Assembly: GCA_040753135.1 (NCBI GenBank)
Contig: JBFMGR010000002.1
Location: forward strand, 41,233 to 75,541
Direction of reading: 5' to 3'
From: Patescibacteria group bacterium
GTDB taxonomy: Bacteria > Patescibacteriota > Minisyncoccia > UBA6257 > Brennerbacteraceae
Length of the DNA: 34,309 nucleotides
The notes under the pieces: model-generated
Told to the model about the DNA's origin: nothing
What the model saw: only the letters and a program-made list of their open reading frames with translations
The model's database searches: none
Position numbers and translations under genes: made by a program
Shown here: piece after piece, positions 2,124-18,626 of the stretch
Layout of the letters: each line of letters begins with the position of its first letter
How positions within the stretch are numbered: position 1 is the stretch's first letter

Positions 2124-2179
2124 AGCTCATTAATTTCTAATTTCTAATTCCTAATTTCCAATTTTAAGATTTAAATTAG
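2124..2179. repeat. Repeat words between prepilin and four-helix-bundle gene
   Basis: TAATTTCTAATTTCTAATTC and CTAATTTCCAATTTT words lie here in the opposite orientation to the 59-bp elements on either side. No other signal is seen. Confidence 0.6.
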
Positions 2180-2557: not shown

Positions 2558-2706
2558 GAAAAGAATTTGAAATTTTCTAAATAGTAATTATGAATTGGGA
2601 ATTAGGAATCCGAAATTTTCTGGACAATGTCTAAATTTTGGAAATTAGAAATTGTCCGCCGAAGGCGGATCCGCCTTTGGCGGAGAAATTTTATAAAGAA
2701 TAGGAG
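2558..2706. repeat. Repeat region with 30-bp near-palindrome (2655-2684) and start of 59-bp element copy 3
   Basis: There is no gene here. At 2655-2684 the words TCCGCCGAAGGCGGA and TCCGCCTTTGGCGGA abut around one shared A/T pair and form a GC-rich near-perfect palindrome set within AT-rich TTGGAAATTAG words. Copy 3 of the 59-bp element runs 2685-2743, so its second half is the start of the next gene. Confidence 0.75.
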
Positions 2707-4338
2707 ATGAATTGGAAATTAGAAATTAGAAATTGGAAATTTTATAGAGGTCAATCTCTGATAGAGCTTTTAGTTGGTATTGGCGTGATTGCGGTTATCT
2801 CAACCTCTGTTGTTGGTTTGATCTATGCTTCTTTGAAAAGCGCCAAGGTCTCTCGGGAGCGATCTCTGGCCCAATCTTTAATTAATGACATGGCCTCTTC
2901 TGTAGAAAGTTTGATTAATGATGACTGGCATTCGCTTTGGTCAGCCAGTGGCGGAATAGTTTACTTATCTTTGGATGAAGGCGCAGACAGCGCTAATAAT
3001 AACAGTCTTGCTTTAGACGAAATCTTTGGCTTTAATGCCGCGATTAATCTCGGTTCCTCGGGCAATACCTCTTTGGCTTCAGCTTGGCAAACAAGCGATA
3101 ACTGCCAAGCGGGCCAATGCTTGAGCTTTGACAACGTTGATGACTATCTTCAGGTTAGCGACACCACTGCCACCTCCAGCCCGATTGATTTAACTACCGC
3201 AATGACTTTTTCTGTTTGGGTTTACCCGACAGATCTTGCTGCTTACGATCCCATCTTGGCTAAAGTTTCTACTTCAACTGTCACTGGTTATGAACTGGCT
3301 AATTCTTCTGGCAGTTTGAGATTAATTCTGAAAACTCCTTCTACTACTTGTGATTATTCTGCCGGAACTTTAGCCCAGAATGTTTGGCAGCATGTTGTGG
3401 CAGCTTATGATGGTTCAAATATCAACCTTTATCTTAATGGCCAACCGGTTGGCAGTCCGTCTGCTTGCTCAACCGGAGCCGCGGTTAATGATGAGAACCT
3501 TTTAATCGGCGGTCGGGCGACTGATTCGGCTAAGTTTTCCGGCCGGATTGATGAAGTCAGAATTTATAACCGGGCCTTAGATTCTCAAGAAATTAGCGGC
3601 CTTTATTCTGGAATTAACAAATTTTATCCATTTAATAGCGCCGGCATCTGGCAGTTAAAGCACGGTAAAGAAACAACCGCTGTGGCAAATATTGAGTTCA
3701 CCCGGTCTTTTTATTTAGAAAGAGTTTTAAGAGACAGCAGTAATAATATCGTTGCTTCTGGCGGAGACAATGATCCGGGAACAAAAAAAGTTATTTACAC
3801 GGTTAGTTGGGGCAACGGTTTTCTCGCTTCACAAGAAGAATATATTACCAGGACTAATTTGAACAATGTTTTTTATCAAACCGATTGGTCCGGAGGAAGC
3901 GGTTCTCAAGAGGCAGTTTTTTTTTCTCCAACCGAGTTTGATACTGCCAGTTCGGCGATAATTTTTTCTGGGGGCAGTTTGGAGTTGAATCTTGCTTCCA
4001 GCACTTCAGGAGATTTGAGTTCAGTTGTTTTTGACAGCCAGCAAGAAAAAGGCGTTATTTTACTGTCTTTGCTTTGGCAGGGGACTTTAGGCAGCGGCAA
4101 TTCTGTCAAATTTCAGTTAGCAAGCGCGGATTCTTCTTCTGGCCCCTGGACTTTTGTTGGTTATGACAATACTTCATCCAGTTATTATCCGTCTTCTGGC
4201 TCAGCTCAATCCAATACGGCAGTGCCGATTATCTCTAAAAATCATTTTAATCATCGTTATCTTAGATATAAAATATTTTTGACCGGCACCTCAACCTCGC
4301 CTTTGATTCAAGACATTTCAATATTGTGGAATCGGTGA
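2707..4338 (+). CDS. Prepilin-like protein with LamG (concanavalin A-like) exodomain
   Basis: This is a pseudopilin-type surface protein. The leader ends RG|QSLIELLVGIGVIAV, with Gly15 at -1 and Glu20 at +5, followed by one hydrophobic helix to about 43. A LamG/LamGL jelly-roll spans about 85-300, with CLSFDNVDDYLQV, MTFSVWVYPT, WQHVVAAYDGSNINLYLNG and FSGRIDEVRIYNRALDSQEI. Such folds bind glycans or proteins. The region 300-543 is beta-rich, with no family I recognise. The first 12 residues (MNWKLEIRNWKF) are the translation of the 59-bp repeat; AGGAG abuts the ATG with no spacer, so true initiation efficiency is unclear. At 543 residues it is far larger than an ordinary pilin, so it is more likely a minor tip or adhesin subunit. 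Confidence 0.85.
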   Translation: MNWKLEIRNWKFYRGQSLIELLVGIGVIAVISTSVVGLIYASLKSAKVSRERSLAQSLINDMASSVESLINDDWHSLWSASGGIVYLSLDEGADSANNNSLALDEIFGFNAAINLGSSGNTSLASAWQTSDNCQAGQCLSFDNVDDYLQVSDTTATSSPIDLTTAMTFSVWVYPTDLAAYDPILAKVSTSTVTGYELANSSGSLRLILKTPSTTCDYSAGTLAQNVWQHVVAAYDGSNINLYLNGQPVGSPSACSTGAAVNDENLLIGGRATDSAKFSGRIDEVRIYNRALDSQEISGLYSGINKFYPFNSAGIWQLKHGKETTAVANIEFTRSFYLERVLRDSSNNIVASGGDNDPGTKKVIYTVSWGNGFLASQEEYITRTNLNNVFYQTDWSGGSGSQEAVFFSPTEFDTASSAIIFSGGSLELNLASSTSGDLSSVVFDSQQEKGVILLSLLWQGTLGSGNSVKFQLASADSSSGPWTFVGYDNTSSSYYPSSGSAQSNTAVPIISKNHFNHRYLRYKIFLTGTSTSPLIQDISILWNR

Positions 4339-4412
4339 ATTTCATTGTCTTATTGCTTCATTGTCAAATTGCTAAATTGTTAAGTTATTAAGTTGTTGCT
4401 AAAATCTATATA
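4339..4412. repeat. TTTCATTG / AAATTGTTAAG word repeats
   Basis: Words such as TTTCATTGTC, GCTTCATTGTC and AAATTGTTAAGTTATTAAG fill the gap. The opposite-strand versions (AATGAAACAGTGAAAC) form the first codons of the next gene. Similar words recur at 26742-26780. TATAAT occurs right at the next start codon (4407-4412), too close to serve as its -10. Confidence 0.6.
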
Positions 4413-5699
4413 ATGGTTCAGCGGCCCAACAATGAAACAGTGAAACAATTTAACAACAGGCCTTCTTTTGGAAAGCCGGGATTCACCTTGACAGAATTAA
4501 TCATTTATGTGGCAATCTTAGGCGCCGTTAGTTTGGTTTTAGTTGGATTTTTAGGCGAAATTTACCGCTATTATTATGATGTCCAGTTTAAGGGTCAGGT
4601 TTCTTCCAATCTAAGGTTTGTTTCTCAAGTAATAGAACAGTCAATCAGGAGCGCTCAAAAAATTAATGGCGCCTCTTCAACTTTATCTTTAGCAATGAAC
4701 GACAGTTCAAAAAATCCGACTGTTTTTGGTTTAGAGAGCGGCCGGATTTATAAACAAGAGGGGACCGGGGGTAAACTTTATCTTAGTGCAAAAAATGTTG
4801 AGGTAACTGATTTAGATTTTTCTTATTTAAACGCGGCTTTGTCAGAAGCTTTGCCGCCGAATCAATGGGCTTGGTCTGGCGGGGCTTCATCTCAAGACCT
4901 CAATGAGGGGGTTGGCTGGATTGATTTTAAGCCGTCTAATTCAGAAGTTAGGATCCCTTTAGGCCAAGGCGACTTTCTGGGAATGGCTTATTCGCCCTGG
5001 GTTAACAATTACTTAAGTTTGAATTGTCTATCCACCAATTCTTGCGATACGGTTGACTATAAGGTTTATTCAGATTCAGATTGGATTCTGCATGGCTGGG
5101 CTTGGTCTGATTTATTTGGCTGGTTAAGTTTTAATTCGCAAGACACGAGTTCTACGGTCAGCTATCAGGTTTCTATTTCTAGCTCTACTGGCGAGTTTTC
5201 TGGCTGGGCTTGGTCAGAAAATATTGGCTGGGTCAGTTTCAATTGCGCCAATGCTGAAGTTAATTCCTGCGCTACGGTTGATTACAAAGTCCAGGTTAAT
5301 CGCCAGCAGGGTCGGTCAATTAACACGGTTTATGTCCAGATAACCGCAAGGTCAAAGACAATTATTCCCAAATTCGTTTTTACTGATTCTTATAGTTTTT
5401 CTGTTCCGGTAATGCCGGTTTCTAATGTGGTTATCTCTAATGTTTCACCTTCTTCAGCTACCAGCACGGTTAGCTTTAATATTACGGGCGAAAATTTCCA
5501 GTCTGGTGCTAAAACTAAGTTGTCTCGGCCGGGTTTTGCTGATATTTTTCCAGCCACAGAATGCACTTTCGTTGGTCCAACCAGTTTGCAATCCTGCGAG
5601 TTTGATTTAACTGGAAAACAAACCGGTTTTTGGAATCTGGTTGTTATTAATCCTGATGCCCAGACGGGTATTTTGCCCCAAGGGTTTGAGATTCAGTAA
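4413..5699 (+). CDS. Prepilin-like protein with GWxWS-type repeats and C-terminal IPT/TIG domain
   Basis: This has a classic class III prepilin leader, KPG|FTLTELIIYVAILGAV, with Gly23 at -1 and Glu28 at +5, then one hydrophobic helix. About 50-150 resembles a GspJ/PulJ-type pseudopilin head. The middle has repeats built on GWAWSDLFGWLSFN and GWAWSENIGWVSFNC, plus a decayed earlier copy (MAYSPWVNNYLSLNC), separated by S-CxTVDYKV segments. The C-terminal 95 residues (VVISNVSPSSATSTVSFNIT onward) form an IPT/TIG Ig-like domain. This suggests a minor pilin displaying a binding module. The leader codons before the cleavage site derive partly from AATGAAACAGTGAAAC repeat words. It is the last gene of the pilin block. 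Confidence 0.85.
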   Translation: MVQRPNNETVKQFNNRPSFGKPGFTLTELIIYVAILGAVSLVLVGFLGEIYRYYYDVQFKGQVSSNLRFVSQVIEQSIRSAQKINGASSTLSLAMNDSSKNPTVFGLESGRIYKQEGTGGKLYLSAKNVEVTDLDFSYLNAALSEALPPNQWAWSGGASSQDLNEGVGWIDFKPSNSEVRIPLGQGDFLGMAYSPWVNNYLSLNCLSTNSCDTVDYKVYSDSDWILHGWAWSDLFGWLSFNSQDTSSTVSYQVSISSSTGEFSGWAWSENIGWVSFNCANAEVNSCATVDYKVQVNRQQGRSINTVYVQITARSKTIIPKFVFTDSYSFSVPVMPVSNVVISNVSPSSATSTVSFNITGENFQSGAKTKLSRPGFADIFPATECTFVGPTSLQSCEFDLTGKQTGFWNLVVINPDAQTGILPQGFEIQ

Positions 5700-5765: not shown

Positions 5766-6545
5766 ATGACCTTAATATCCAAACCAATTTTACTTGTTCT
5801 TTTGGGATTATTTCTTGTCTCTGGGTCTTTTTATCTGGGTTTGAATTTTGACGAGTTAAAAACCAATTTTCTCTCCAAAAACAAAGCTTGCACTCTTGAG
5901 ATGATGGCTTGTCCAGATGGGACAATGGTCGGTCGGGTTGGGCCAAACTGCGAGTTTGCCCCGTGCCCAGGTCCTAAAAGCTTGCCCCCCGGTTCTCTTG
6001 GGCAGAATTTTACCGGAGTAATTACAAATATCACTTATGATTGTCATTTTGACGGGATTTGCTCGGTGCAAGTTGACAATAGTAAAGAAGTGATTGTGGG
6101 AAGGGGCGAAGGGCCGCTGCCCGAAGAACAAGGGCGATTAATTGATTTTGTTTTAGATGAAAGGAAAGAAAAGTCTTATTGGGGTAAGCCGGTTGAAGTT
6201 TTTGCCCAAAAAATAAGCGAGGGGAATTATACGCTTTATGGGTCAACAAATTATTATCTTAAACTGCTATCGGTTTCCCAGGCAGAAAACTGTTATTCGG
6301 AATTGGTGAAATCTTTTGTTCCCGGTGTGCTTCTGCCCAATCTTTCCGGTAAATTTTGCCAATGTATGGACGGGCAAGTGATTAACGGAGATTCTTGCCA
6401 AACAGAAGAGGGGACTTATTCTCTTTGGGAATATTTTGATTTAAAAAATCCTTTTGATAATCTTTTTTCCCAAACTCCTGTGGGCGAAGAAAAAAGATCT
6501 GAGTTCTGTCAGCTTAATCCCAAAAGCATTTATTGCCGCAAATGA
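5766..6545 (+). CDS. Membrane-anchored cysteine-motif protein of unknown function
   Basis: The product has 259 residues. One N-terminal hydrophobic segment (about 8-27, ILLVLLGLFLVSGSFYLGL) is a signal anchor or signal peptide. Near 42-68 comes a cysteine motif, CTLEMMACPDG then GRVGPNCEFAPCP, seen in many CPR surface proteins. The remainder is extracytoplasmic-looking, with paired cysteines (CHFDGIC, CQCMDGQVINGDSC, FCQLNPKSIYC). I recognise no enzyme motif. Its stop overlaps the ATG of the decayed gene at 6543. Its place between pilins and secreted hydrolases fits an envelope role, but the function is unknown. Confidence 0.75.
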   Translation: MTLISKPILLVLLGLFLVSGSFYLGLNFDELKTNFLSKNKACTLEMMACPDGTMVGRVGPNCEFAPCPGPKSLPPGSLGQNFTGVITNITYDCHFDGICSVQVDNSKEVIVGRGEGPLPEEQGRLIDFVLDERKEKSYWGKPVEVFAQKISEGNYTLYGSTNYYLKLLSVSQAENCYSELVKSFVPGVLLPNLSGKFCQCMDGQVINGDSCQTEEGTYSLWEYFDLKNPFDNLFSQTPVGEEKRSEFCQLNPKSIYCRK

Positions 6546-6674
6546 AGGAGTTTTTGTTTTTTGTTATTTCGTTTTTTCTCTTTAAAGCAACTGTTTCTGC
6601 AGTAAATTTTTCCTGCTCACTTAAGGGTGGATATTTTTGATTATAATAAATTAGTGGGGAATTTTGAAAGATGA
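6543..6674 (+). pseudogene. Remnant of a dockerin-bearing secreted enzyme (internal deletion)
   Basis: An ATG at 6543 opens a signal-peptide-like reading (MKEFLFFVISFFLFKATVSA) followed by VNFSCSL, which resembles ANFSCSI just after the signal peptide of the next gene. After this the frame changes. Bases from about 6628 read, in another frame, VDIFDYNKLVGNFER and stop at 6674, which is the last 15 codons of the dockerin tails at 7951, 9546, 11060 and 12694. The next gene's ATG overlaps this stop (ATGA), just as between 8/9 and 9/10 of the dockerin genes. The simplest reading is that a paralogue lost its whole catalytic part. Confidence 0.75.
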
Positions 6675-7951
6675 GAAAATTATTAATTTTTTTGGGGGCT
6701 TCTTTGTTTTTTATTTTTTCTTCTCAAGGCGTGACTCTAGGGGCCAATTTTTCTTGTTCGATTAATAATTATCAGCCCAATTGGCTTAATCATTCTTTCT
6801 TTGGCATTGCCGCTAATCAGGGTGCGACACCGGCGAAATTTACGCAGATTGCAGAAGCCCTTGGACAAACTCGGGTCGGCATGGTCAGAGAAAGCATTAA
6901 ATGGAGCCAAGTGGAAGAAACCAGAGGAAATTTTAGTTGGCAAGAGGTTGATACCAAATTTGAGGCTTTGGCCCGGGAAAGTATCCGCCCCCTGGCAATA
7001 ATTGTCAGAACTCCTGCTTGGGCTTCAAGCCGGCCAAACAGTCCTGATGCGGATATTTACCCTCCTGAAAATCTATATACCTGGAAGAGCTTTATCAGAC
7101 AGTTAGTCAGGCGCTACGGCAAACCGGGCAGAAACATCATCAAAGACTGGGAAATCTGGAACGAGCCGGATGTCGCCAAATTTTTTAAGGGTACGCCGGA
7201 TGATTATATTAAACTTTTAAATGCCGCCTACGATGTTATTAAAGAAGAAGATCCCCAAGCGCGTGTCTGGGGGCCGGCGACTTTTGCGATTTATCCTAGT
7301 CAGGAAAAATTTATTTTCACTCAAAAAGCGGTTGAAACAGGCAAAATGGATGTGTTTTCCGTCCATGTTTATGCTCGGACCGTTTCCGAGATTTACAATA
7401 AAACCAGATCTATCCGTCAATATCTTGATCAACATGGGAAAAGTAATCTTCCTCTGGCTTTAACCGAAACCAATCTTTCTGGACCGGACATTTCTGGTCA
7501 ATGTCCTTATTTGGGTTCAGCTTCTGACCAAACCCAGCCCCAGACCTTGACTGATATTTATCTTTGCAATGCCAGCGCCGGAGCTAAATTTGTTTTCTGG
7601 TTTAAAGCCAATGACACGCCAACCAATATCTGTACCAATGACGACATGAACCGCAACGGAGTTTTACGCTACGACTTAAGCAAAAAGCCGTCCTTCAACC
7701 GACTGCAAAATCTGATCGCCCAGTTTGTTTCTCTGCCAAGCCCCTCACCTTCACCGCCCGCTTCAATCCCCGGCGATATTATCGATGAAGGGGATACCCC
7801 GACTGACCAGGTCAATATCTATGACTACAACCTCCTTGTTGCTGATTTTGGCAAAACCGGCTCCCCTGGCTTTATCCCGGCGGATATTATTAAAGATGGC
7901 AGGGTGGATATTTTTGATTATAATACAGTCGTAGGTAATTTCGGGCAGTAA
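6671..7951 (+). CDS. Secreted clan GH-A glycoside hydrolase (GH39-like) with C-terminal dockerin
   Basis: This is a likely extracellular glycosidase. A signal peptide covers residues 1-24 (LIFLGASLFFIFSSQGVTLG). A (beta/alpha)8 barrel spans about 40-355: IKWSQVEETRGNFSWQEVD and the acid/base Glu165 in WEIWNEPD, then DVFSVHVYAR and the nucleophile Glu266 in LALTETNLSG. The spacing between the two Glu residues fits clan GH-A. A Pro/Ser linker (SPSPSPPASIP) leads to a dockerin module with two EF-hand-like repeats, VNIYDYNLLVADFG and KDGRVDIFDYNTVVGNFG. The first loop is unusual (DEGDTPTDQVN), as in the gene at 9543. The start overlaps the stop of the ghost gene. Substrate is not predictable; the GH39/GH5-like call is tentative. 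Confidence 0.87.
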   Translation: MRKLLIFLGASLFFIFSSQGVTLGANFSCSINNYQPNWLNHSFFGIAANQGATPAKFTQIAEALGQTRVGMVRESIKWSQVEETRGNFSWQEVDTKFEALARESIRPLAIIVRTPAWASSRPNSPDADIYPPENLYTWKSFIRQLVRRYGKPGRNIIKDWEIWNEPDVAKFFKGTPDDYIKLLNAAYDVIKEEDPQARVWGPATFAIYPSQEKFIFTQKAVETGKMDVFSVHVYARTVSEIYNKTRSIRQYLDQHGKSNLPLALTETNLSGPDISGQCPYLGSASDQTQPQTLTDIYLCNASAGAKFVFWFKANDTPTNICTNDDMNRNGVLRYDLSKKPSFNRLQNLIAQFVSLPSPSPSPPASIPGDIIDEGDTPTDQVNIYDYNLLVADFGKTGSPGFIPADIIKDGRVDIFDYNTVVGNFGQ

Positions 7952-8037
7952 CTGATTGCCCCTTCTCTCCATTGAGGATCTTAAATCAAACCCGTATGAT
8001 GGATATAAGGATCAGGATTATCAGTTGTAAATTTAAC

Positions 8038-9546
8038 ATGCGGAAAAAATATGCTCATGCACTTTTCTTTCTTATTCTTCTCTTTCTATGTTTGAACATA
8101 GCTACCCCCGTCTATGCTGCTGTCACGTATTACATTGCAAACAACGGTTCTGACGTCAATGACGGCACCAGCGAATTCAGTCCTTGGCAATCGCTCTCCA
8201 GGGCCAAAAGTGTCAATCTTCAGCCTGGTGACAAACTGCTATTTCAGCGCGGAAGTACTTGGACAGGGGAATTGACTATCACCCGTTCTGGACAGGCAAA
8301 CAATCCGATTACCATTGGGGCGTACGGTTCAGCAATTGCCAAACCGACTTTTCAAAATCCAGGAGGTACCTGGAATCACGCGATCGAGCTCTGGGGCGAT
8401 TACATTCTTGTTGAGGATGTTCTGGTTAAAGACACAAAAGAAGCCGGTATATCCATTGAGGTGGGCGCAGATTACAACACCATTAGAAATATTGAAGCTG
8501 TCTCAACAGGTCAAGCCATACTTGTTCGCGGAACTCACAATCTCATCACGAACAATTACATTCACGATGGCATCATGGTGGTTAATACCCAGGGCGGTGA
8601 CGATGACTTTGGTGCAAACGGTATAGTGATACGGAGTGCAAATAATGAAGTATCGTATAATCAGATTATCAACTGTCGTGCTCCAAGCTACGATTACGGC
8701 TATGACGGCGGGGCTTTTGAGTTTTACTCTACCTCTTCGACCCCAGGAAATATGGATAACAACTATATCCATCACAATTTTGTTCAAGGATGCAATGGTT
8801 TCATGGAGGTGGGGGGCAAGAACCCCAAGAGCATGAGAAACAATATCATCGCCTACAATATTTCATACAACAATTATAGTTTTGCAAGTATCCACAATGG
8901 CACTGGCGGAGGATTTCAAGTTGACGTACAAAACTTGAGGATTGAAAACAATACAATTGTAGAAACCACGGGCGCGGGTAAGCACATCTTTTGGATCTGG
9001 CAGCCAGCCTCTGCGGGTACTGTTAACTTCCGAAACAACATTGTGTACTCAGATACGAAATATGGCGCTTCCAACCAGGTTAACTTTTCCCACTCAAACA
9101 ATGTATTTTATTTTATCTCTGGGGCCTCTTTCCCTTCCAGTTACGCCAACAGTAGTGATATGGTTGACCAAAACCCTCAATTTGTTAATCTCTCAAATGG
9201 AGATCTCCACCTTTTGTCTCATAGTCCGGCAATTGATAAAGGTGTTCACTTGGGTTACAGTCAAGACTTTGACGGACGGTCTATAGCCGGCGTTCCGGAT
9301 ATAGGCGCGTTTGAGTACAGTACTGGCGGACTCCCGCCTACGCCTACTGTTACCCCCACTCCAGATACCACCCTCATTTTAGGGGATTTAGACCGAGACG
9401 CGGATGTTGATATCCGTGACTACAATCTTTTAGTTGCTGACTTTGGCAAAACCGGTTCCCCGGGTTTTATTGCCGCTGATATTATTAAAGACGGCCAGGT
9501 GGATATTTTTGATTATAATATCCTGGTAACAAATTTTGGCAGATGA
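8038..9546 (+). CDS. Secreted right-handed parallel beta-helix protein with C-terminal dockerin
   Basis: This is a probable polysaccharide-binding or -cleaving beta-helix protein (pectate-lyase-like fold). I chose the ATG at 8038 because it gives a clean signal peptide (KKYAHALFFLILLFLCLN, cleavage near PVYA|AV). Upstream in-frame starts (TTG 7972, ATG 7996 and 7999) would add 13-22 polar residues. The mature protein begins YYIANNGSDVNDGTSEFSPW, a common opening for this superfamily. Repeating N-I/N-Y coils (NTIRNIEAV, NLITNNYIHD, NEVSYNQIINC, NYIHHNFVQGC) follow, ending at PDIGAFEY. A Pro/Thr linker leads to the dockerin: GDLDRDADVDIRDYN is a full Ca-binding loop, and KDGQVDIFDYN is the second. 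Catalytic residues cannot be assigned. Base use in the N-terminal part is richer in C/G third positions than in the dockerin part. Confidence 0.85.
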   Translation: MRKKYAHALFFLILLFLCLNIATPVYAAVTYYIANNGSDVNDGTSEFSPWQSLSRAKSVNLQPGDKLLFQRGSTWTGELTITRSGQANNPITIGAYGSAIAKPTFQNPGGTWNHAIELWGDYILVEDVLVKDTKEAGISIEVGADYNTIRNIEAVSTGQAILVRGTHNLITNNYIHDGIMVVNTQGGDDDFGANGIVIRSANNEVSYNQIINCRAPSYDYGYDGGAFEFYSTSSTPGNMDNNYIHHNFVQGCNGFMEVGGKNPKSMRNNIIAYNISYNNYSFASIHNGTGGGFQVDVQNLRIENNTIVETTGAGKHIFWIWQPASAGTVNFRNNIVYSDTKYGASNQVNFSHSNNVFYFISGASFPSSYANSSDMVDQNPQFVNLSNGDLHLLSHSPAIDKGVHLGYSQDFDGRSIAGVPDIGAFEYSTGGLPPTPTVTPTPDTTLILGDLDRDADVDIRDYNLLVADFGKTGSPGFIAADIIKDGQVDIFDYNILVTNFGR

Positions 9547-11060
9547 AAAAAATATTGCTATTTTTCACTCTTTTCCTTTTTTCCGGCTTGACACTTATAG
9601 GAGTTCGCCCCGTATCCGCGGCCGAATCGCCGTATCTCAAAATGCACGGCAAGATTTTCGAAAACATTTCCCGCCCCCGATTTCTTGATAATCTTACCGC
9701 TGAAAATCCCCTCTATCTCTTTAGTAATCCTTTTGTGGATACAAGCATCCTTACCTCCGGAAAAATCCAGGAAATCCACTCCCGTCTCCCCCAAATTAAA
9801 GTTATCCTCCATCTACTCTGCTGCACCCTGTTTGATAACAAAGAGGTTGATAGTATCCCGCCAGGGAAAATCCACGCCGATCTTCAAAATTCCCAAGGAC
9901 AATTTGATAACTTCTGGACAAATCACCGTGATGCTTTTATGAAAAACAGTGGTGGTGGATATGTTTATTACAAAATTGAAAAAACGGGTAACTATTGGTT
10001 TTATGAGGGTGACGGGCACCTCATGGATCCGGCGAACTCCTTTTATCAGAATTTCCTATATGGCAAAATTAAACACTACATTGATGCTGGTTATGACGGC
10101 GTCTACCTTGACCTTATGTATCCTAACTTCATGCAAAAGTTTTATTACTCCAAACCTTTCATAAACGGCCACGCCATCACGCGGGACGAGTGGAACAGCA
10201 AACTCATCAGCTTAAGCCGCTCCCTCCAAGACCGCAAAAACAACGACCCGGACCCAACAATGAAAAAGGCGCTTATTATCACCAACAGCGTCGGCGGCGG
10301 ACCCGGGGACGGGAGCGACCCTGTCGACCGCATCCAGTTTAACCGGGATCTCCAGACGCAGGGAGTACAGATTGAAAACCCGTTTGCCGATTATCGCACC
10401 ATGACAACCGGTGACTGGCTGGGGACCGTCAATCGCATCCGGGATATCACGGCGCTCCGAAATAATCAGCTCCGCGGCTGGTTGAACTTTCATGCCAGCG
10501 AGCAGTTCCCCAACCAGGAAGAGTGCGACCGCCACGGACTGTTCACCTATGCGTCCTACCTGCTCGGCAACCAGTCACCGCTGTTTGCCTTTCAGTTCGA
10601 GTGCGCCATGGGTCCCGGCATCCACACGGAACCGACGCAGAACCTAACCCGTATCCGCTTGGGGAATCCCGTAGGTCCCTACCGGCAAACGTCCTTCCTC
10701 TACCGCAGGGATTATGACAACGGCCTGGTCCTTGTCAATCCCACGGATACCCAGCGCACGTATCAGCCGGCAGTACCGCTCTTTAACCCCTACACCTCTG
10801 CCGTCTATCCTGCCAATAGCACAATCCATGTTGCAACCCGAAGCGGGTTAGTACTTCTCAAAAACCCAGCCCGCAACCCCGCTGACCTGACCGACGAAGG
10901 AGATACTCCGGGAAACCAGGTGAATATTTACGACTACAATCTTTTAGTTGCTGACTTTGGCAAAACCGGCTCCCCGGGTTTTATTGCCGCTGATATTATT
11001 AAAGACGGCAGGGTGGATATTTTTGATTATAATATATTAGTAGAGAATTTTGAGAGATGA
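9543..11060 (+). CDS. Secreted putative glycoside hydrolase (GHL15-like barrel) with C-terminal dockerin
   Basis: The signal peptide covers residues 1-27 (LLFFTLFLFSGLTLIGVRP, cleavage near VSA|AE). The body resembles the hypothetical glycosyl hydrolase-like families such as GHL15: a barrel strand AGYDGVYLDLMYPNF with acidic residues, WLNFHASEQFP, and a C-terminal beta part YDNGLVLVNPTDTQRTY...RSGLVLLKNP. The exact family and substrate are uncertain. The dockerin follows from about 450: DEGDTPGNQVNIYDYN and KDGRVDIFDYNILVENFER. Codon use from about 10140 to 10900 is clearly more GC-rich than in the neighbours, while the dockerin returns to the local AT-rich style, suggesting the catalytic part was acquired from elsewhere. 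It overlaps its neighbours by ATGA at both ends. Confidence 0.75.
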   Translation: MKKILLFFTLFLFSGLTLIGVRPVSAAESPYLKMHGKIFENISRPRFLDNLTAENPLYLFSNPFVDTSILTSGKIQEIHSRLPQIKVILHLLCCTLFDNKEVDSIPPGKIHADLQNSQGQFDNFWTNHRDAFMKNSGGGYVYYKIEKTGNYWFYEGDGHLMDPANSFYQNFLYGKIKHYIDAGYDGVYLDLMYPNFMQKFYYSKPFINGHAITRDEWNSKLISLSRSLQDRKNNDPDPTMKKALIITNSVGGGPGDGSDPVDRIQFNRDLQTQGVQIENPFADYRTMTTGDWLGTVNRIRDITALRNNQLRGWLNFHASEQFPNQEECDRHGLFTYASYLLGNQSPLFAFQFECAMGPGIHTEPTQNLTRIRLGNPVGPYRQTSFLYRRDYDNGLVLVNPTDTQRTYQPAVPLFNPYTSAVYPANSTIHVATRSGLVLLKNPARNPADLTDEGDTPGNQVNIYDYNLLVADFGKTGSPGFIAADIIKDGRVDIFDYNILVENFER

Positions 11061-12694
11061 AATATATTCTTACACTTTTTATCCTAGTTATCTTTCCCCT
11101 TGTCTTTCTACCCTCGTCTACTTACGCCGCCAATGTATCTTTTAACCTGGATGATTCCCACTTTATTCCCAAGCTTGTTAACAGTTTTAATGAATCCTGG
11201 ATCGGCATCACCCCGATTTCCTTTAGCTACAACAAAATGGCTTTTGACAAAACCGGAACTAATCTTATCCGCTTTCCCGGAGGCACGGTCGGCAATTTCT
11301 ACGACTGGGAAACTTTTGCTCCAAACTGGCAAGTCGCAGAAGAAATCTTAGGGGCGCACAACAAAGATTATCAGTTTCAAAAAAAATCATTTGAGACCTT
11401 AGTTAGAAATCTTAATCCGATTGATTTTATTAATAAAGCCCATGAGTACGGACAAGAAGTTATTGTTCAACTTAATCTTTATATCAACACTCCGGCGCAA
11501 ACAGCAGCGGCTTTAAGAAAAATCAAAAATGCCGGGATTGATATCAAATATTTTGAACTGGGCAATGAGATGTATGCTTATATGTCTTTAAACGAATATC
11601 TGCAAAAAGCCCAGGCCGCTGCCGTTAAAATTAAAGAGTATTATCCCAATGCCCAGATTGGTATTGTCGCTAACCAGCGTGTTTTATGGAGTGGCGGGGA
11701 TAGTCGGTGGGGGAATGAAGCACCTCCCAATGCCGACTGGTTTGATGCAATTATTGTTCACCCCTATCTTAATTCTCAACCCGAGCCTAACATGTCCACC
11801 AGTCTTACCAACCCGGAACACCAAGAATATATCTTCTCCTCGGTAAATGAGAAGCTAGCAAGATTGGTTGATCTGGTTAAAGCCCAGTATCCTAACAAAA
11901 AAATCTGGACTACTGAATGGAATACCCTGTCCGGCCCGGAACAAGAAAATCCTTTTATGACTAATACCTATTCTTCTTCGGTTTACACTTACTACTTTTT
12001 GCTCAATCTTCTTAAGTACCCGCAAATTACCATTGCCAACCGTCACTTTTTGTGGGGAAAAAGTGAATCGCCGATTAATGCGCTCCTTCAGGTTAAGAAC
12101 AATATTTATGAAACTTACTACAGTCAGGATCGAAATCCGCCGGACAATGCTTTTTCCTTTGAGCAATTTTTTGTCAAAACGCCCCCATATTGGCCTTTTG
12201 CCTGGATTGGAGAGGCTTTTTCCCGACATTCTAAGTTTGCGGTAATTGACAATCCGGGCTATGCTGCCGCTTACTTTTTTAAACCCAGCCAAGCTCAAAC
12301 CGGATCAATCGCGATTATTAATAAAAAGCCTGTTAGCCAGAGTTTTTATTTTGAAAATATTGACCCGAATACCCCTTACTCAGCCATTGTTTTAGCCGAG
12401 GATTGGCTCGCCCCAAACAGCGAAGAAAACCAAATGCAACCCCAAACCAGACCTCTTGAGAATAAAACCCTTAGAATTGGCCCTTTTGCCATTGCCTATA
12501 TTACACCAACCGAGGTCGCGCCGCTCTTAGCTGATCTTAACCAAGATAATAAAGTAGACATCTATGACTACAACCTTCTTGTTACCGACTTTGGCAAAGC
12601 CGGTTCCCCGGGCTTTATTCCGGCAGATATTATTAAAGATGGCAAAGTGGATATTTTTGATTATAATATATTAGTGGGGAATTTTGGGCGATAA
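11057..12694 (+). CDS. Secreted clan GH-A glycoside hydrolase (GH51/GH79-like) with C-terminal dockerin
   Basis: The signal peptide covers residues 1-24 (ILTLFILVIFPLVFLPS, cleavage at TYA|AN). The barrel includes NLIRFPGGTVGNFYDWE, close to the RFPGG...YDW signature of alpha-L-arabinofuranosidase/glucuronidase-type enzymes. The acid/base Glu171 lies in FELGNEMY, then come WFDAIIVHPYLNS and the nucleophile Glu287 in WTTEWNTLSG. A C-terminal beta-sandwich spans about 380-480. The dockerin is the most canonical of the set: ADLNQDNKVDIYDYNLLV and KDGKVDIFDYNILVGNFG. The start overlaps the preceding stop by ATGA, implying translational coupling. It is the last enzyme before the cohesin genes. Arabinofuranoside or uronide substrates are a guess from motif similarity. 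Confidence 0.85.
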   Translation: MKYILTLFILVIFPLVFLPSSTYAANVSFNLDDSHFIPKLVNSFNESWIGITPISFSYNKMAFDKTGTNLIRFPGGTVGNFYDWETFAPNWQVAEEILGAHNKDYQFQKKSFETLVRNLNPIDFINKAHEYGQEVIVQLNLYINTPAQTAAALRKIKNAGIDIKYFELGNEMYAYMSLNEYLQKAQAAAVKIKEYYPNAQIGIVANQRVLWSGGDSRWGNEAPPNADWFDAIIVHPYLNSQPEPNMSTSLTNPEHQEYIFSSVNEKLARLVDLVKAQYPNKKIWTTEWNTLSGPEQENPFMTNTYSSSVYTYYFLLNLLKYPQITIANRHFLWGKSESPINALLQVKNNIYETYYSQDRNPPDNAFSFEQFFVKTPPYWPFAWIGEAFSRHSKFAVIDNPGYAAAYFFKPSQAQTGSIAIINKKPVSQSFYFENIDPNTPYSAIVLAEDWLAPNSEENQMQPQTRPLENKTLRIGPFAIAYITPTEVAPLLADLNQDNKVDIYDYNLLVTDFGKAGSPGFIPADIIKDGKVDIFDYNILVGNFGR

Positions 12695-12715
12695 TTAATT
12701 AAATTAAAAACAAAA

Positions 12716-13249
12716 ATGACAAATAAAAAATACTTAGGTTTAATTGTTTTAATTTTGCTCGGTGCGGTTGCTGTTGGTAGTTGGTTTTATTTGAACAAAA
12801 TAACAGTCAAACCAACTCCTCAATCTATTAGCGGAGTGAAACTTTATTTTCTGCCTGAAAGCTTTTCTGTTAAATCAGGCGATAATTTCACAGTTGCTTT
12901 ACGAATAGACCCGGTTGGCAAAAAAATCACTGCTCAAGAGCTTTATTTTTCTTTTAATTCGGAGCTGGTTAACTTGAACAGAATTACCACCTCAACCGCC
13001 TTTTCAGTGGCTTTAATGCCGGCAGAGATTAATAATCAAACAGGCCAAGCTTCAATTACTCTTGGCGCTCCTCCGACTGCTCCGGTTGGCGAGGAATCTG
13101 ATGTGCTTTATCTTAATTTTACTGCCGAAGATCAGGTGGGCAGGGGCGTGGTTAAAGTTGAAAACAACTCTCAAGTTGCGGCAATCGGAATGACCGCCAA
13201 TGTTTTAGAGGGGTTTGGCGCCCTGCAATTAAGAATTAATAGGAAGTAA
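12716..13249 (+). CDS. Membrane-anchored cohesin-domain protein
   Basis: The product has 177 residues. One N-terminal hydrophobic segment (6-26, LGLIVLILLGAVAVGSWFYL) has no obvious cleavage site, so it probably stays as an anchor with the cohesin outside. Residues about 40-175 show the cohesin pattern: LYFLPESFSVKSGDNFTVAL, then AQELYFSFNSELVNL, then GQASITLGAPPTAPVGEESD and LYLNFTAEDQVGRGVVKV. Cohesins bind dockerins, and four dockerin-bearing enzymes lie directly upstream. The gene starts 21 bases after the last enzyme and 21 bases before the next cohesin, so the genes are likely co-transcribed. Confidence 0.8.
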   Translation: MTNKKYLGLIVLILLGAVAVGSWFYLNKITVKPTPQSISGVKLYFLPESFSVKSGDNFTVALRIDPVGKKITAQELYFSFNSELVNLNRITTSTAFSVALMPAEINNQTGQASITLGAPPTAPVGEESDVLYLNFTAEDQVGRGVVKVENNSQVAAIGMTANVLEGFGALQLRINRK

Positions 13250-13270
13250 TTAGGAAGAAAGATTAAAAAA

Positions 13271-13975
13271 ATGAAAAAATTTTTTGTTGTGCTTTTTTCG
13301 AGCTTAATTGTTATTATTCAAACTGGAGTTGTCTTAGCAGCTCCGGATACTCGGCTTTATTTTGAACCACAGAACAGCTCTGTTAATCCAGATAATAGTT
13401 TTTCCCTGAAGGTTAAGATTAATCCTGGAACCAATCGGGTTAGCGCAATTGAGCTTTATCTTTCTTTTGATAAAACCAGACTGCGGCTAGATAGTATAGG
13501 TGTTTCCAGCGCCTTTTCTACTGTTTTAAAATCAGCGGCAATTAACAATACTGCTGGCACTGCTTCAATTACAGTTGGCAGTCCTCCGGCCTCGCCAGTC
13601 AGCGCCGTTTCTGATCTGGTTACTCTTAATTTTAAAGCCAAAACAGGAGCAGCGGCTGGCAATGCTTCTGTGGCTGTGGTTAACACCACCAAAGCCGCGG
13701 CACTGGGCGAAACCGGCAATGTGATTATTAGTTCTGGCTATGGCTCAGCAGTTGTTTCTGTTGTGATTCCTTCTCCCAGTCCAAGCCCGATTTACAATGA
13801 TGCGGATTTGGATTTAGACGGCGAAGTTTGGCTTAGCGACTATAATGCTTTGCTGACTGTTTTTGGTCAAACTAATTCAACTCCAGGTTGGATTAGGGCT
13901 GATATTCTTAGAAATGGCAGAATAGACATTTATGACTACAATGCTTTAGTTGTGAATTTTGGCTTTGGGCATTAA
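13271..13975 (+). CDS. Cohesin-dockerin adaptor protein, secreted
   Basis: The signal peptide covers residues 1-23 (FFVVLFSSLIVIIQTGVVLA|AP). The cohesin spans about 25-165 (LYFEPQNSSVNPDNSFSLKV, AIELYLSFDKTRLRLDSI, TASITVGSPPASPVSAVSD, VTLNFKAKTGAAAGNASV). A SPSPSP linker leads to a dockerin (about 175-232) with DADLDLDGEVWLSDYNALL as a canonical Ca loop and RNGRIDIYDYNALVVNFG. One protein carrying both partners can bridge an enzyme to another cohesin, as cellulosome adaptors do. The cohesin is very similar to that of the following gene (NPGTNRVSAIELYL shared), indicating tandem duplication. The GAAPDTR start of the mature protein is soluble, with no further anchor. Confidence 0.85.
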   Translation: MKKFFVVLFSSLIVIIQTGVVLAAPDTRLYFEPQNSSVNPDNSFSLKVKINPGTNRVSAIELYLSFDKTRLRLDSIGVSSAFSTVLKSAAINNTAGTASITVGSPPASPVSAVSDLVTLNFKAKTGAAAGNASVAVVNTTKAAALGETGNVIISSGYGSAVVSVVIPSPSPSPIYNDADLDLDGEVWLSDYNALLTVFGQTNSTPGWIRADILRNGRIDIYDYNALVVNFGFGH

Positions 13976-13987
13976 AATCAGCATCAA

Positions 13988-14773
13988 ATGATTTTGAGTA
14001 ATAAAATTAAAGTCTTTTTTTGTTCAATTTTGGCTTTTTTGCTCTTGCCAATAGCCGTTTGGGCTGCTCCAGCAAGCTCGCTTTATTTTGAACCAAAAAC
14101 AATCCAGAGCTCTGTTAATAAGAACTTTTCCTTAAAGCTGAAAATCAATCCCGGAACCAACCGAGTTAGCGCAATTGAGCTTTATTTAGAGTTTGACGCT
14201 AACAGATTAAGGCTTAATAGCATCACACCTTCTTCTGCTTTTGGGATAGTTCTTCAGCCTGCGAATATAGATAATAATCAAGGCAAAGCCTCTGTTGTTC
14301 TTGGCGCGCCGCCGACTGCGCCAGTAAGCAGCATTTCTGATTTGGTTAATTTAAGCTTCACCACAAAAACAGCCGGACAAACTAATATCAGCATTCCCCA
14401 GCAAACTGAAGTCGTAGCAATCAATGAGACCGGCAATGTGATTGTTTCTTATGGCCAGCCAGCTCTAATAACTATTTCTGGTTCTTCTTTGCCAGTTACG
14501 CCAACACCAGCTGTTTCCTTTACTCCTTGGCCATCTCTGCGCCCCAGTTCTAACCCGAGCTTTAGTCCAGTTGTTTCCGTTTTGCCAAAACCGTCTCCAA
14601 AATCTGAAGAGACCGAAACCGGTTTGTTTCCTAATTTAAAACGTTATGTTCAGAGTTATCAAAAAAGAGAAACTACAGAGCCAGAGAAAGACCGCAGCGC
14701 TTTGCCTATTTTTGAGTTTATCAAAGGAATTTTCAGCGCTTTGGGAAATTTCTTTAAGAACTTGTTTAAATGA
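13988..14773 (+). CDS. Secreted cohesin protein with long linker and C-terminal amphipathic/hydrophobic helix
   Basis: The signal peptide covers residues 1-26 (FFCSILAFLLLPIAVWA|AP). The cohesin spans about 28-165 (LYFEPKTIQSSVNKNFSLKL, AIELYLEFDANRLRL, ASVVLGAPPTAPVSSISD, VNLSFTTKTAGQTNISI). A Pro/Ser/Thr-rich linker (about 170-215), a charged stretch, and a C-terminal helix follow (FEFIKGIFSALGNFFKNLFK), which is amphipathic and rich in Phe/Lys and could associate with the membrane or a partner. It has no dockerin. Being the third consecutive cohesin, it may be the cell-surface docking point, but that is inference. A candidate promoter for the next gene follows its stop. Confidence 0.78.
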   Translation: MILSNKIKVFFCSILAFLLLPIAVWAAPASSLYFEPKTIQSSVNKNFSLKLKINPGTNRVSAIELYLEFDANRLRLNSITPSSAFGIVLQPANIDNNQGKASVVLGAPPTAPVSSISDLVNLSFTTKTAGQTNISIPQQTEVVAINETGNVIVSYGQPALITISGSSLPVTPTPAVSFTPWPSLRPSSNPSFSPVVSVLPKPSPKSEETETGLFPNLKRYVQSYQKRETTEPEKDRSALPIFEFIKGIFSALGNFFKNLFK

Positions 14774-14820: not shown

Positions 14821-17406
14821 ATGAAAAATATTTTTCAGACTAAATTTAAAAAAATAAATGGTTTTGGCAAAGCTATTTTTGCTCTGATTGCGGTCGGTTT
14901 TTTAAGTTTTGCGATGATTGTTTTTGCTTGGCAGAATCCGACTCAATCTCCGCCCGGCGGAAACTTATCTCTGCCCTGGACCCGGAGCGGCACCAATGTT
15001 TATCTAACTAATACCGGAGATAAGGTTGGAATTGGCACTATCTCGCCCTCTGCGCCTTTACATGTCTTGAGCAGTGTTTCAAGCGGTGAAACCCTCATCG
15101 CCGAGAACTCAAATGCCAATCCAAAACTAGAGTTTCGCAGTTCAACTGGCGCCGTGAGAGCTTATTTACAAAGTGTTTATAACTCCGGTTTTTATATCGC
15201 CCAAACTCAACAAGCTTACCCTCTAATATTGCAAACCAGTAGTACGGAAGCGATGAGAATCGACTCAAGCCAGCGTGTCGGTATCGGCACGACGAGCCCC
15301 TCTCAAAAACTGACTGTTCAACAAGACAACGTGGCCGACATTTTGGGCCTTTATGATGGGGCCAATAATACCAGTCTCCTTTTGGCTGATGCGGGAGTGC
15401 TGACCTTAAAGCCTACGGCCTTTGATACGGTTTATAACTTTGACGGAGGTGTAGCCTACACCGACAATACTACCGAAGCCAAAACTTCTGGCGGCACGGC
15501 CTTTACTTTGCTTGCTCTTGAGGCCAGCTCTGACGATGAACTTTACCTTGGTTTAGACCATAAATTTGCGACAGTTTATTTTGATATTGCCACAGCTGGG
15601 GCTGGTGTCACCCTCTCGGCCCAATACTGGAATGGTGCCTGGAGCGCTTTAACCATTACTGACGGTACCACCAATTTAACTGTCGACGGTACGGTTACTT
15701 TTACGGCTCCTTCTGACTGGGCTACCACCTCTGTTAATGGCGTCACCAAATACTGGATTAGACTGCGCTCCCCGACTACCAACATTACCACCGCCCCGAC
15801 TGCCTATTCGGTTTCACCCACCACCGGCAATCGCTTTTACGCCTATGCCCAAGCCGGCGACACCAACCCGGCGCTCTATATCAATGACAAAGGCAACGTC
15901 GGCATCGGGACGACGGCGCCCAAAGATAACGCTAACCTCGAAATTGTTAGCAGTCAGGCAAGACTGCAGGTTACCTCAAGCGGCGCCAATGATCCGCTAT
16001 TTGTCCTTCGGCCTGACAGCGGCTGGTCAAACCAATGGACAATGCTGGTTGATGACGATAACAATAACTATTTGGGTTTTACCTACGGGTCGGTAACCAA
16101 TACTCCTAAAGTGACTTTTGACACCTCCGGCAACATCTATCTTTCCACTGGAGCCAGCCGAACTATTAAGGTTGCCGATAGCACCAGTGGTGCCGGAAAT
16201 AATCTAACCGTTAAAGCCGGATCAGTTGTTTCTCCCGGTAATGCGGCCGGCGGCCATTTATATCTTCTGGGCGGCGACAGTATGTTAAATAATGGCGCCG
16301 GCGGTGTTTATATTTCCGGCGGCCCGGACACCGGCGGCGGTGAGGGCAATGTCATCCTCGCCCACAACGGCTCCAGCGCCATCGGCTCGGTCGGCATCGG
16401 TAAAACTTCGCCGAGCGGCACCCTGGATGTGGAAGGCGATCTTTATATGGGTACTGGCACTGGTGCAGGTAAATGGAGAATGTTTTCTGTAACCGCCCTC
16501 ACCGGGTGTGACGGTACAGCGGGTTCCGTCAACGCGCTTTGTTGGGATGATCAGGGAGACTCCGGTACTTCCGAAATGAGATTGCAAGCAGGTGGTAATC
16601 TTGTAACAGCCGGTACGCAAACACCCAGCGGTGATCCGGACTATGCTGAGATGATAGAAGTAATAGACCAGAGCATTGAACCCGGAGACATTATTTCAGT
16701 TGTCAGTCCATTAGATTCCAGTTTCGGCAAAGATCTTAACAGTGCTCGGGCAGACAAAAGCAAACAAGCTTATGACTCTGGAGTTATCGGGATTATCTCT
16801 AAAGACCCAGGGGTGTTGATTGCTTCTGGCGGTCGAAGTATGAGAATAGATGATCAAACCCGGTGGAAAGATGAGACCAGAAGAGCTTTGTCTGTGGCCG
16901 GCCGCGTCATGACAAAAGTCTCCGCCATCAACGGTGCCATTAAAGTCGGCGATCCGATTGCTTCAAGCAATATTACTGGTGTGGGCATGAAAGCTACCCG
17001 GGCCGGCCGAATTGTCGGTTATGCAATGGAAAAATATGACAACTCTGATCCTGAAAAGATCGGTCAGATTGTTGTTTTTATTAACCCTTCCTGGTATGAT
17101 CCTGATGTTTATTTGACCGATGGAGATAGTTTTAAGATAGAACTAGGGGATAATCAGCCCAATGGCAAATATCAAATTTTAGATTTCTTTAATAAAATAA
17201 TTGATAGAATCGGGGCTTTTAACCAGATAATCGCGGCCAATATTAAAGCTGGTTTAATTGAGGCCAAGGAATTAACCAGCAGGAGAATTACCGCAGAAAA
17301 GATTACGGCTAAAAACCTTGAGTTGATTGATCAGATTACCGGTGAGGTTTACTGCATTGGTATTAAAGCAGGTGATTTATTCAGCCAAAAAGGCGAGTGT
17401 CAATAA
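14821..17406 (+). CDS. Large GIGT-repeat surface protein (tail-fibre-like)
   Basis: The product has 861 residues. The N-terminal hydrophobic segment (about 18-40, AIFALIAVGFLSFAMIVFAW) is a signal or anchor. Several copies of the VGIGTxxPxxxL motif (RVGIGTTSPSQKLTV, NVGIGTTAPKDNANLEI, VGIGKTSPSGTLDVEG) follow; these are typical of phage tail-fibre and S74-chaperone-type proteins and of CPR surface proteins. A beta-rich insert lies at about 195-350 (FDIATAGAGVTLSAQYWNG). The C-terminal part (about 605-861: YAEMIEVIDQSIEPGDIISV, ALSVAGRVMTKVSAINGAIK, GYAMEKYD) resembles conserved tail segments in this group. A helical end (IIAANIKAGLIEAKELTSRR) could trimerise. I see no cohesin or dockerin. The middle third has a higher GC style than the two ends, suggesting module exchange. 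Its role may be adhesin or scaffold, but it is unproven. Confidence 0.72.
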   Translation: MKNIFQTKFKKINGFGKAIFALIAVGFLSFAMIVFAWQNPTQSPPGGNLSLPWTRSGTNVYLTNTGDKVGIGTISPSAPLHVLSSVSSGETLIAENSNANPKLEFRSSTGAVRAYLQSVYNSGFYIAQTQQAYPLILQTSSTEAMRIDSSQRVGIGTTSPSQKLTVQQDNVADILGLYDGANNTSLLLADAGVLTLKPTAFDTVYNFDGGVAYTDNTTEAKTSGGTAFTLLALEASSDDELYLGLDHKFATVYFDIATAGAGVTLSAQYWNGAWSALTITDGTTNLTVDGTVTFTAPSDWATTSVNGVTKYWIRLRSPTTNITTAPTAYSVSPTTGNRFYAYAQAGDTNPALYINDKGNVGIGTTAPKDNANLEIVSSQARLQVTSSGANDPLFVLRPDSGWSNQWTMLVDDDNNNYLGFTYGSVTNTPKVTFDTSGNIYLSTGASRTIKVADSTSGAGNNLTVKAGSVVSPGNAAGGHLYLLGGDSMLNNGAGGVYISGGPDTGGGEGNVILAHNGSSAIGSVGIGKTSPSGTLDVEGDLYMGTGTGAGKWRMFSVTALTGCDGTAGSVNALCWDDQGDSGTSEMRLQAGGNLVTAGTQTPSGDPDYAEMIEVIDQSIEPGDIISVVSPLDSSFGKDLNSARADKSKQAYDSGVIGIISKDPGVLIASGGRSMRIDDQTRWKDETRRALSVAGRVMTKVSAINGAIKVGDPIASSNITGVGMKATRAGRIVGYAMEKYDNSDPEKIGQIVVFINPSWYDPDVYLTDGDSFKIELGDNQPNGKYQILDFFNKIIDRIGAFNQIIAANIKAGLIEAKELTSRRITAEKITAKNLELIDQITGEVYCIGIKAGDLFSQKGECQ

Positions 17407-17892: not shown

Positions 17893-18576
17893 TTAAGGTT
17901 TTTCTAATAATAGATCTTTTAGATTTTCTGTTTCTAAATTTTTAAGCCAATCATAAATTGATTTTCGGTATTCTTTTTCTCCATTGAAGATTTCTAAAAG
18001 GAAATCCCGATTTGTCACAGAGGGGAAATTGTGTTTTCCGCAGTAATCTAAATGGCTACTCCAACGATAATTCTCTAAAAATTCTTTTGCTTTGTTATAG
18101 TTGTCTAATTTGTTTTTTCGCCATTCTGGCGCGATTAAATCCAAGGGGTTGCAATGAATGTAATAGGGAAGATGGAGAAAGTGCGATTCTTGAGTAATTG
18201 GGGCAGATTTATACCTTCCTTCAAATAGCGCTCCGGTTCTTTTGTATTTTTCATTGAAATATTTAGCATAACCCATATTTAGTTTTTTCATAAATAGCGA
18301 AATCGCTTTATCTTGTCTTGGGCTAAGAAGTAGGTGATAGTGGTTTGGCATCAAGCAAAAAGCATGAATGTCAACCAACAATTTCCTTGCCTTCTTTTTC
18401 ATATAAGGACTTGCGATGTCCTTAGATTTTTGGCGGAAAAAGTAGGTTACGTTATTCACCCAATCTTGGTCATTAAATTCATACAGGTCATGAACAAAGC
18501 GGAAGTAATCTTGTTCATCCATAAATATTTTTCGTTTATCTACGCCCCTATTTAAAGTATGTACGAGTTGTACCAT
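17893..18576 (-). CDS. REP-associated tyrosine transposase (RAYT, Y1/IS200-like family)
   Basis: This is a single-strand DNA transposase of the HUH type that acts on REP hairpins. Visible motifs are LVHTLNRGVDKRKIF near the N-terminus, the metal-binding HUH motif in FCLMPNHYHLLLSP, and the tyrosine region YAKYFNEKYKRTGALFEGRY. HLPYYIHCNPL and YRWSSHLDY then follow, as in family members. I prefer the ATG at 18576 (227 residues) because conserved sequence begins there; the upstream ATG at 18609 adds only 11 Asn/Tyr-rich residues. Three REP-like hairpins border or lie in the gene, one within its own coding sequence. It runs divergently from the cysteine desulfurase gene. Confidence 0.9.
   Translation of the reverse strand: MVQLVHTLNRGVDKRKIFMDEQDYFRFVHDLYEFNDQDWVNNVTYFFRQKSKDIASPYMKKKARKLLVDIHAFCLMPNHYHLLLSPRQDKAISLFMKKLNMGYAKYFNEKYKRTGALFEGRYKSAPITQESHFLHLPYYIHCNPLDLIAPEWRKNKLDNYNKAKEFLENYRWSSHLDYCGKHNFPSVTNRDFLLEIFNGEKEYRKSIYDWLKNLETENLKDLLLEKP
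18404..18424. repeat. REP-like hairpin 2, inside the transposase gene
   Basis: The stem TAAGGAC / GTCCTTA (7 bp) closes the loop TTGCGAT. On the coding strand it reads as codons for SKDIASPY, so the element is tolerated within the transposase. It is an exact reverse complement of 18627-18647. Confidence 0.85.
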
Positions 18577-18626
18577 AGAAATTTTATTATTATAATTGTT
18601 ATATATCATTTATTATAATTTTTATC

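Follow-up and report, generated by a model that had tools for sequence, protein, structure and literature searches.

We identified a compact operon of cohesin and dockerin genes in a stretch of 34,309 nucleotides (nt; the window) of contig JBFMGR010000002.1 from a Patescibacteria group bacterium of the family Brennerbacteraceae (GenBank assembly GCA_040753135.1). Seven open reading frames on one strand (6671–14773) encode four secreted proteins with a C-terminal dockerin, followed by three cohesin proteins; this tight arrangement had already been described correctly in a first-pass annotation of the window. We consider it likely that the encoded proteins form a small, cellulosome-like enzyme complex at the cell surface, put together from parts that contain one cohesin each. 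It would probably function like a cellulosome, but not like a classical one. For the coordinates of all features see Table 1.

All three cohesin proteins exceed the Pfam cut-off for PF00963 of 24.1 bits (33.6, 42.7 and 36.7 bits for cohesin proteins 1 to 3), in agreement with their earlier assignment. Chance domain matches were rejected as an explanation, because three cohesins in a row lie above the cut-off. The middle protein also contains a C-terminal dockerin, which the first-pass annotation had overlooked. With a cohesin and a dockerin on one chain it therefore reads as an adaptor. An AlphaFold2 model of the adaptor (mean predicted local distance difference test score, pLDDT, of 87.9) comprises a cohesin β-sandwich together with paired dockerin helices. 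All 37 best PDB matches of this model in a Foldseek comparison were cohesins, with dockerin-complexed ones on top. The closest ones belong to Clostridium acetobutylicum, Acetivibrio cellulolyticus and Clostridium cellulolyticum (expectation values, E, from 2.8e-10 to 1e-8; E 2.8e-10 for 6kgf), and the template modelling (TM) score for 5nrm was 0.80 by target. Cohesins of the PDB were recovered by the fold comparison alone: a PDB sequence search with the adaptor returned none, and a profile of the three cohesins had zero matches among the PDB sequences. Cohesin 1 starts with a hydrophobic segment in which no clear cleavage site was recognized by sequence. The C-terminal tail of cohesin 3 has an amphipathic moment of 0.72, equalled in one of 10,000 shuffled sequences.

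The source genome consists of 622,592 bases over 18 contigs and has a completeness rating of 100%. A scan with PF00963 revealed only one further cohesin-like gene, and home-built profiles additionally detected two cohesin genes in a cassette on contig 1. No multi-cohesin protein was found in the genome with PF00963 and the home-built profiles; each protein carries one cohesin. A scan of the database genome_contigs with the adaptor returned no relative, and the genome was placed by its FtsZ instead (see below). The further PF00963 match (contig 3, 51134–51403; L004/L143) lies in the extracellular part of a sensor-looking membrane protein of about 700 residues, encoded without an adjacent dockerin gene. 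A similar gene occurs in the same family (L138).

The five dockerins of the window each comprise two repeats around a DYN motif. The four enzyme dockerins share pairwise identities of 67–88%, and a profile built from all five retrieves every one of them from the genome (E from 1e-33 to 3e-36), as expected for its own members. The scores with PF00404 were 16.0 bits for enzyme 2 and 18.1 bits for enzyme 4. They fall below the Pfam gathering cut-off of 22.9 because the calcium loops are degenerate. For enzymes 1 and 3 and the adaptor no match was listed in the Pfam scan. The dockerin assignment of the first-pass annotation is weaker than that of the cohesins by Pfam, but is supported by the repeats and by a clade (support 99) which the window dockerins share with complete dockerins of genome G377 (32–33 bits with Pfam). 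As PF00404 alone detected one window dockerin in the genome, at E 0.001, and thus undercounts, home-built profiles were used instead. The dockerin of enzyme 4 weakly matches the dockerin chain of PDB entry 2y3n (E 0.03). A search of the PDB with the dockerin profile gave, besides 2y3n, mostly pentatricopeptide repeat proteins, which were discarded as chance matches to YN.L...GK.G.

Two of the exported proteins are assigned to glycoside hydrolase (GH) or related families by profile. Enzyme 1 matches GH39 with 59.2 bits (Pfam cut-off 26), and its WEIWNEP and TETN motifs, corresponding to the NEP and TE motifs of GH39, align with GH39 enzymes in the PDB. The nearest PDB sequences are PslG and β-xylosidases; matches to GH5, GH10 and GH44 are weak and overlap the GH39 domain. 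Enzyme 3 matches GHL15 (PF14885) with 38.1 bits (cut-off 27). Enzyme 2 is β-helix-like, as had been predicted, and the best match of its N-terminus is to the start of the GH136 lacto-N-biosidase 6kqs (E 6e-11). Enzyme 4 contains YFELGNE and TE.NT motifs, which also occur in its two distant relatives among 287 genomes of the phylum; a tblastn search against plasmids gave no match. An AlphaFold2 model of enzyme 4 from a three-row alignment reached a pLDDT of 37 and was discarded, so its assignment to clan GH-A stays unproven. The earlier hydrolase calls thus stand for enzymes 1 and 3, whereas the clan assignment of enzyme 4 is not confirmed by a profile.

Based on these results we propose the following arrangement. 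The four exported proteins, of which profiles identify at least two as glycoside hydrolases, would dock via their very similar dockerins to the three cohesins. Through its N-terminal anchor, cohesin 1 would tether the complex to the membrane, on which cohesin 3 may rest with its amphipathic tail. As an adaptor, the middle protein would connect a docked enzyme with an anchored cohesin, and it could also lengthen the chain. The probable substrate of the enzymes is a glycan near the cell, such as the exopolysaccharide of a neighbour, a host-surface glycan or detritus. The products would be available to a sugar ATP-binding cassette (ABC) transporter; such uptake is possible because the genome encodes its sugar-binding protein (PF01547). 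That the predicted miniature complex is self-contained, as had been suggested, is plausible.

In order to characterize the pairing of cohesins and dockerins we compared Patescibacteria genomes. Within the same order PF00404 was found in 56 of 150 genomes and PF00963 in 37 of 150. Both domains occur together in 28 genomes, compared with 13.8 expected under independence (Fisher p 8.7e-8). A cohesin and a dockerin lie at most 3.5 kilobases apart on one strand in 25 of these 28. Phylum-wide the counts are 149 (PF00404) and 112 (PF00963) of 380 genomes. The source belongs to the candidate phyla radiation (CPR), as had been assumed: its genome is small, at 622 kb, its FtsZ is nearest to Paceibacterota/Patescibacteria records (52–53% identity), and the assignment is therefore right. 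The view that such domains are unusual for CPR bacteria, in contrast, is not supported, given how common the domains are in order and phylum, the second system in the same genome and the CPR "cellulosomes" reported earlier.

Cohesin and dockerin types are co-inherited. Their distance matrices correlate over 56 loci with a Mantel r of 0.57, a value reached in 0 of 5000 permutations, which ignore species relatedness. As a control we used genomes with two systems, in which the cohesin and the dockerin of a locus agreed on outside loci in most comparisons (114 of 124 for the nearest cohesin, 151 of 173 for the farthest), the single comparisons being non-independent. Species history alone is therefore unlikely to explain the pairing. 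Many of the loci had been picked for closeness of cohesin and dockerin, which biases them toward adjacency, not toward matching types; among 20 loci chosen by dockerin match regardless of cohesins, 13 have a neighbouring cohesin. In unrooted domain trees of Patescibacteria rows only (52–125 columns), the closest relatives of the window dockerins and of the window cohesins alike come from G377 and G439, and both genomes also hold the partner domain. The window cohesins group with G377 (support 96) in a first tree and with G377 and G439 (support 87) in a second one. By these comparisons the window cohesins and dockerins look like mutual partners. Dockerin proteins of another type, some in tandem, occur in G196, G225 and G204 (L148, L149, L158, L163) with no adjoining cohesin.

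A search of CPR genomes for the same gene order, as proposed with the first-pass annotation, yielded a matching gene set in G439, a single-contig genome from a different family and distant lineage. Its operon (L218) encodes a GH39 protein with dockerin, an N-terminally anchored cohesin, an immunoglobulin (Ig)-cohesin protein with a C-terminal membrane segment and an adaptor of cohesin and dockerin. The GH39 protein is 31% identical to enzyme 1 along its length (8e-64) and retains both GH39 motifs. The single-contig genome G377, also of a different family, contains three scattered secreted proteins with a dockerin of nearly the window type and one N-terminally anchored cohesin. A second system is present in the source genome itself (contig 1, 41055–44734; L145:7056–10735). 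This cassette has the form that is most common in the order (see below) and comprises a dockerin protein of 309 residues, a cohesin-like protein of 306 residues and a cohesin protein of 609 residues with a C-terminal membrane segment and a charged tail. Its dockerin is of a different type, with LVDFS where the window has DYN.

Proteins that combine a cohesin and a dockerin were also found in G011, G061, G308, G567 and others. The dockerin of the G439 adaptor belongs to the enzyme dockerin type, and therefore adaptors could in principle bind one another. Tentatively, adaptors of one binding type with a single cohesin and a single dockerin might chain head to tail in Patescibacteria and replace a large scaffoldin, although we regard this as rather doubtful. 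Such a chain would carry the enzymes, with short membrane cohesins tethering it to the cell. A distinct, more classical multi-enzyme form occurs in G312 (L176, G312:C27:2500-20000) and the related G339 (L177–L179), with five dockerin proteins including an apiosidase-like one with a family 6 carbohydrate-binding module (CBM6) and one β-helix. The dockerin genes in G312 are followed by a gene whose 939-residue product combines a dockerin with two cohesins and is, by its predicted domains, a true small scaffoldin.

Several observations weigh against a working enzyme complex. Position 3 of the second dockerin loop is Ile or Leu instead of the usual Asn or Asp in all five dockerins, and an insertion breaks the first loop in the dockerins of enzymes 1 and 3. 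The adaptor dockerin has diverged and is 48–56% identical to the enzyme dockerins. Enzyme 4 matches no profile besides the dockerin. Support for the wider group in the cohesin tree dropped from 96 to 87 on adding rows. Finally, AlphaFold2 was used on single chains only and gave no cohesin-dockerin interface.

The dockerin proteins might instead form an adhesive surface structure that serves mainly to bind a host cell or matrix, with the GH-like domains as lectin-like binders and not as a machinery for degradation. The commonest form in the order, in which the gene for a dockerin-tailed protein precedes those for one or two cohesin proteins that end in a membrane segment, fits this view, as most of the dockerin partners are of the Ig or fibronectin type III (Fn3) type and lack an enzyme domain. 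One of the essential proteins of the epibiont Southlakia epibionticum has a dockerin, and the authors suggest a role in adhesion or degradation for it (PMC10633639), and the dockerin repeats of a giant Omnitrophota protein have been proposed as adhesins (PMC10066038). For the window we nevertheless judge adhesion unlikely, since its GH39 and GHL15 domains score above the Pfam cut-offs with the NEP and TE motifs of GH39 kept, and since the GH39 protein with both motifs is retained in the G439 operon.

It is highly improbable that the operon represents a classical cellulosome for the degradation of plant walls that was obtained from a cellulolytic bacterium, even though the cohesin fold and the dockerins resemble cellulosomal ones. 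Among the operon proteins there is no cellulase family above the Pfam cut-off and no carbohydrate-binding module (CBM), and no multi-cohesin scaffoldin accompanies them. The nearest relatives are Patescibacteria in trees that held only Patescibacteria rows, and the GC content of most operon genes (0.40–0.45; 0.49 for the GHL15 gene) matches that of the window. The term cellulosome-like from the first-pass annotation is accordingly apt for the dockerin-tailed GH39 and GHL15 proteins and the type I-like cohesins, but does not extend to a multi-cohesin scaffoldin or a recognized cellulase.

Directly upstream of the operon we observed the relic of a dockerin gene. In it a signal peptide, MKEFLFFVISFFLFKATVSAVNFSCSLKG, is followed in another frame by the final 15 residues of a dockerin, VDIFDYNKLVGNFER. 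The stop codon of this dockerin end overlaps the start of enzyme 1 by 4 nt, like the intact dockerin genes of the operon. The likeliest reading of this arrangement is that one more dockerin gene once stood upstream of enzyme 1 and was mostly deleted. The DNA of the dockerin ends is strikingly similar across the four enzymes, and one insertion is common to enzymes 1 and 3. That the whole locus is a decaying remnant, i.e. duplicated dockerin genes under loss with no working complex, would agree with this relic and with the partly degenerate calcium loops, but seems most improbable in view of seven intact, tightly spaced genes and a matching set retained in a distant lineage, and the loss of one member also fits a changing enzyme set.

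Table 1. Features of the cohesin-dockerin operon (window coordinates).
Feature	Position	Strand	Remarks
Relic of deleted dockerin gene	6542..6674	+	Match to five-dockerin profile, E 2.5e-5
Enzyme 1, secreted, GH39-like hydrolase, dockerin at the C-terminus	6671..7951	+	Pfam; full-length relative in L218
Dockerin of enzyme 1	7790..7942	+	First calcium loop broken by insertion
Enzyme 2, secreted, β-helix-like, N-terminus GH136 lacto-N-biosidase-like, C-terminal dockerin	7972..9546	+	
Probable true start of enzyme 2	ATG ~8038	+	Begins its signal peptide
Dockerin of enzyme 2	9382..9537	+	
Enzyme 3, secreted, member of the GHL15 family, dockerin at the C-terminus	9543..11060	+	PF14885, 38.1 bits
Dockerin of enzyme 3	10908..11051	+	Insertion as in enzyme 1
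Enzyme 4, secreted, clan GH-A-like motifs, C-terminal dockerin	11057..12694	+	Motifs
Dockerin of enzyme 4	12530..12685	+	Weak match to PDB 2y3n_B
Cohesin 1, one cohesin (12836–13210) behind an apparently uncleaved N-terminal membrane anchor	12716..13249	+	
Adaptor, signal peptide, cohesin (13349–13729), Pro/Ser linker, dockerin (13802–13960)	13271..13975	+	
Cohesin 3, signal peptide, cohesin (14072–14449), Pro/Ser linker, strongly amphipathic C-terminal helix	13988..14773	+	

The genes of the operon are separated by 20, -4, -4, 21, 21 and 12 nt, negative values denoting overlaps. The first gap becomes about 86 nt if enzyme 2 begins at the ATG listed in Table 1 instead of the TTG at 7972. Contamination was rejected as an explanation, as type II secretion system (T2SS)/pilin genes together with clp, hisS, ftsA and ftsZ flank the locus on one contig. 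The genes 5' of the operon (185–5699) resemble type II secretion and type IV pilus genes (T2SSF, prepilin-like proteins), and one prepilin-like protein (2707–4338) bears a laminin-G/concanavalin-type lectin domain. An 861-residue protein encoded 47 nt 3' of the operon (14821–17406) resembles phage tail-fibre proteins (PHROGs). It is followed by a Y1 (IS200-like) transposase gene (17893–18609) with short, near-identical hairpins at 18404 (TAAGGACTTGCGATGTCCTTA) and 18627 (TAAGGACATCGCAAGTCCTTA), which together look like a transposase associated with repetitive extragenic palindromic (REP) elements. A similar-looking protein is encoded near the contig 1 cassette (L145:2237–2941).

If the predicted surface complexes are real, they would bring, for part of the phylum and with named genes, a concrete and testable answer to the largely unsettled question of how reduced Patescibacteria attack other cells or feed on them. 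From the common cassettes it seems that pairing in the phylum primarily attaches exported proteins to the cell, enzyme complexes being a special case. The paired types also make up a naturally occurring series of small and distinct cohesin-dockerin specificities, which is useful for studying pair divergence and for designed enzyme assemblies. A literature search gave no description of these gene clusters or their distribution; most subscription journals lie outside its coverage, so this result is no proof of novelty.

The window operon shares with the clostridial cellulosomes (type I, with CipA/ScaA-type scaffoldins) the cohesin fold, the duplicated dockerin layout, exported enzymes with a C-terminal dockerin and cohesin genes in the same cluster. 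It differs from them in that the cohesins lie on separate proteins, the calcium loops of the dockerins are partly degenerate, and no CBM3, S-layer homology (SLH) module or recognized cellulase was found. Adaptor scaffoldins in which a single cohesin is combined with a single dockerin exist elsewhere, e.g. ScaH of Ruminococcus flavefaciens. The window adaptor resembles this type (cf. PDB 8ajy) with one cohesin and one dockerin per chain, but ScaH-type adaptors serve a large scaffoldin, whereas the searches of the source genome gave no multi-cohesin protein. In 2009, cohesin and dockerin modules that are not accompanied by a large scaffoldin were reportedly described outside the cellulolytic bacteria, according to a paper citing that work. 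In comparison with those modules, the window pairs both kinds in one operon with several enzyme-like partners. For CPR bacteria, Geesink (2020) is said, in a paper on Shapirobacterales, to have found a cellulosome in Roizmanbacterium. Expressed cohesin and dockerin proteins of Shapirobacterales are themselves termed a cellulosome in that paper (PMC9123182), and a "two-subunit cellulosome" is mentioned in a report on the Saccharibacterium T. rhizospherense (PMC6031116). These accounts, like ours, read CPR cohesin and dockerin genes as a polysaccharide-degrading complex. In their accessible parts they stay at the level of annotation, whereas for the operon described here gene order, an adaptor, pair types and distribution are given.

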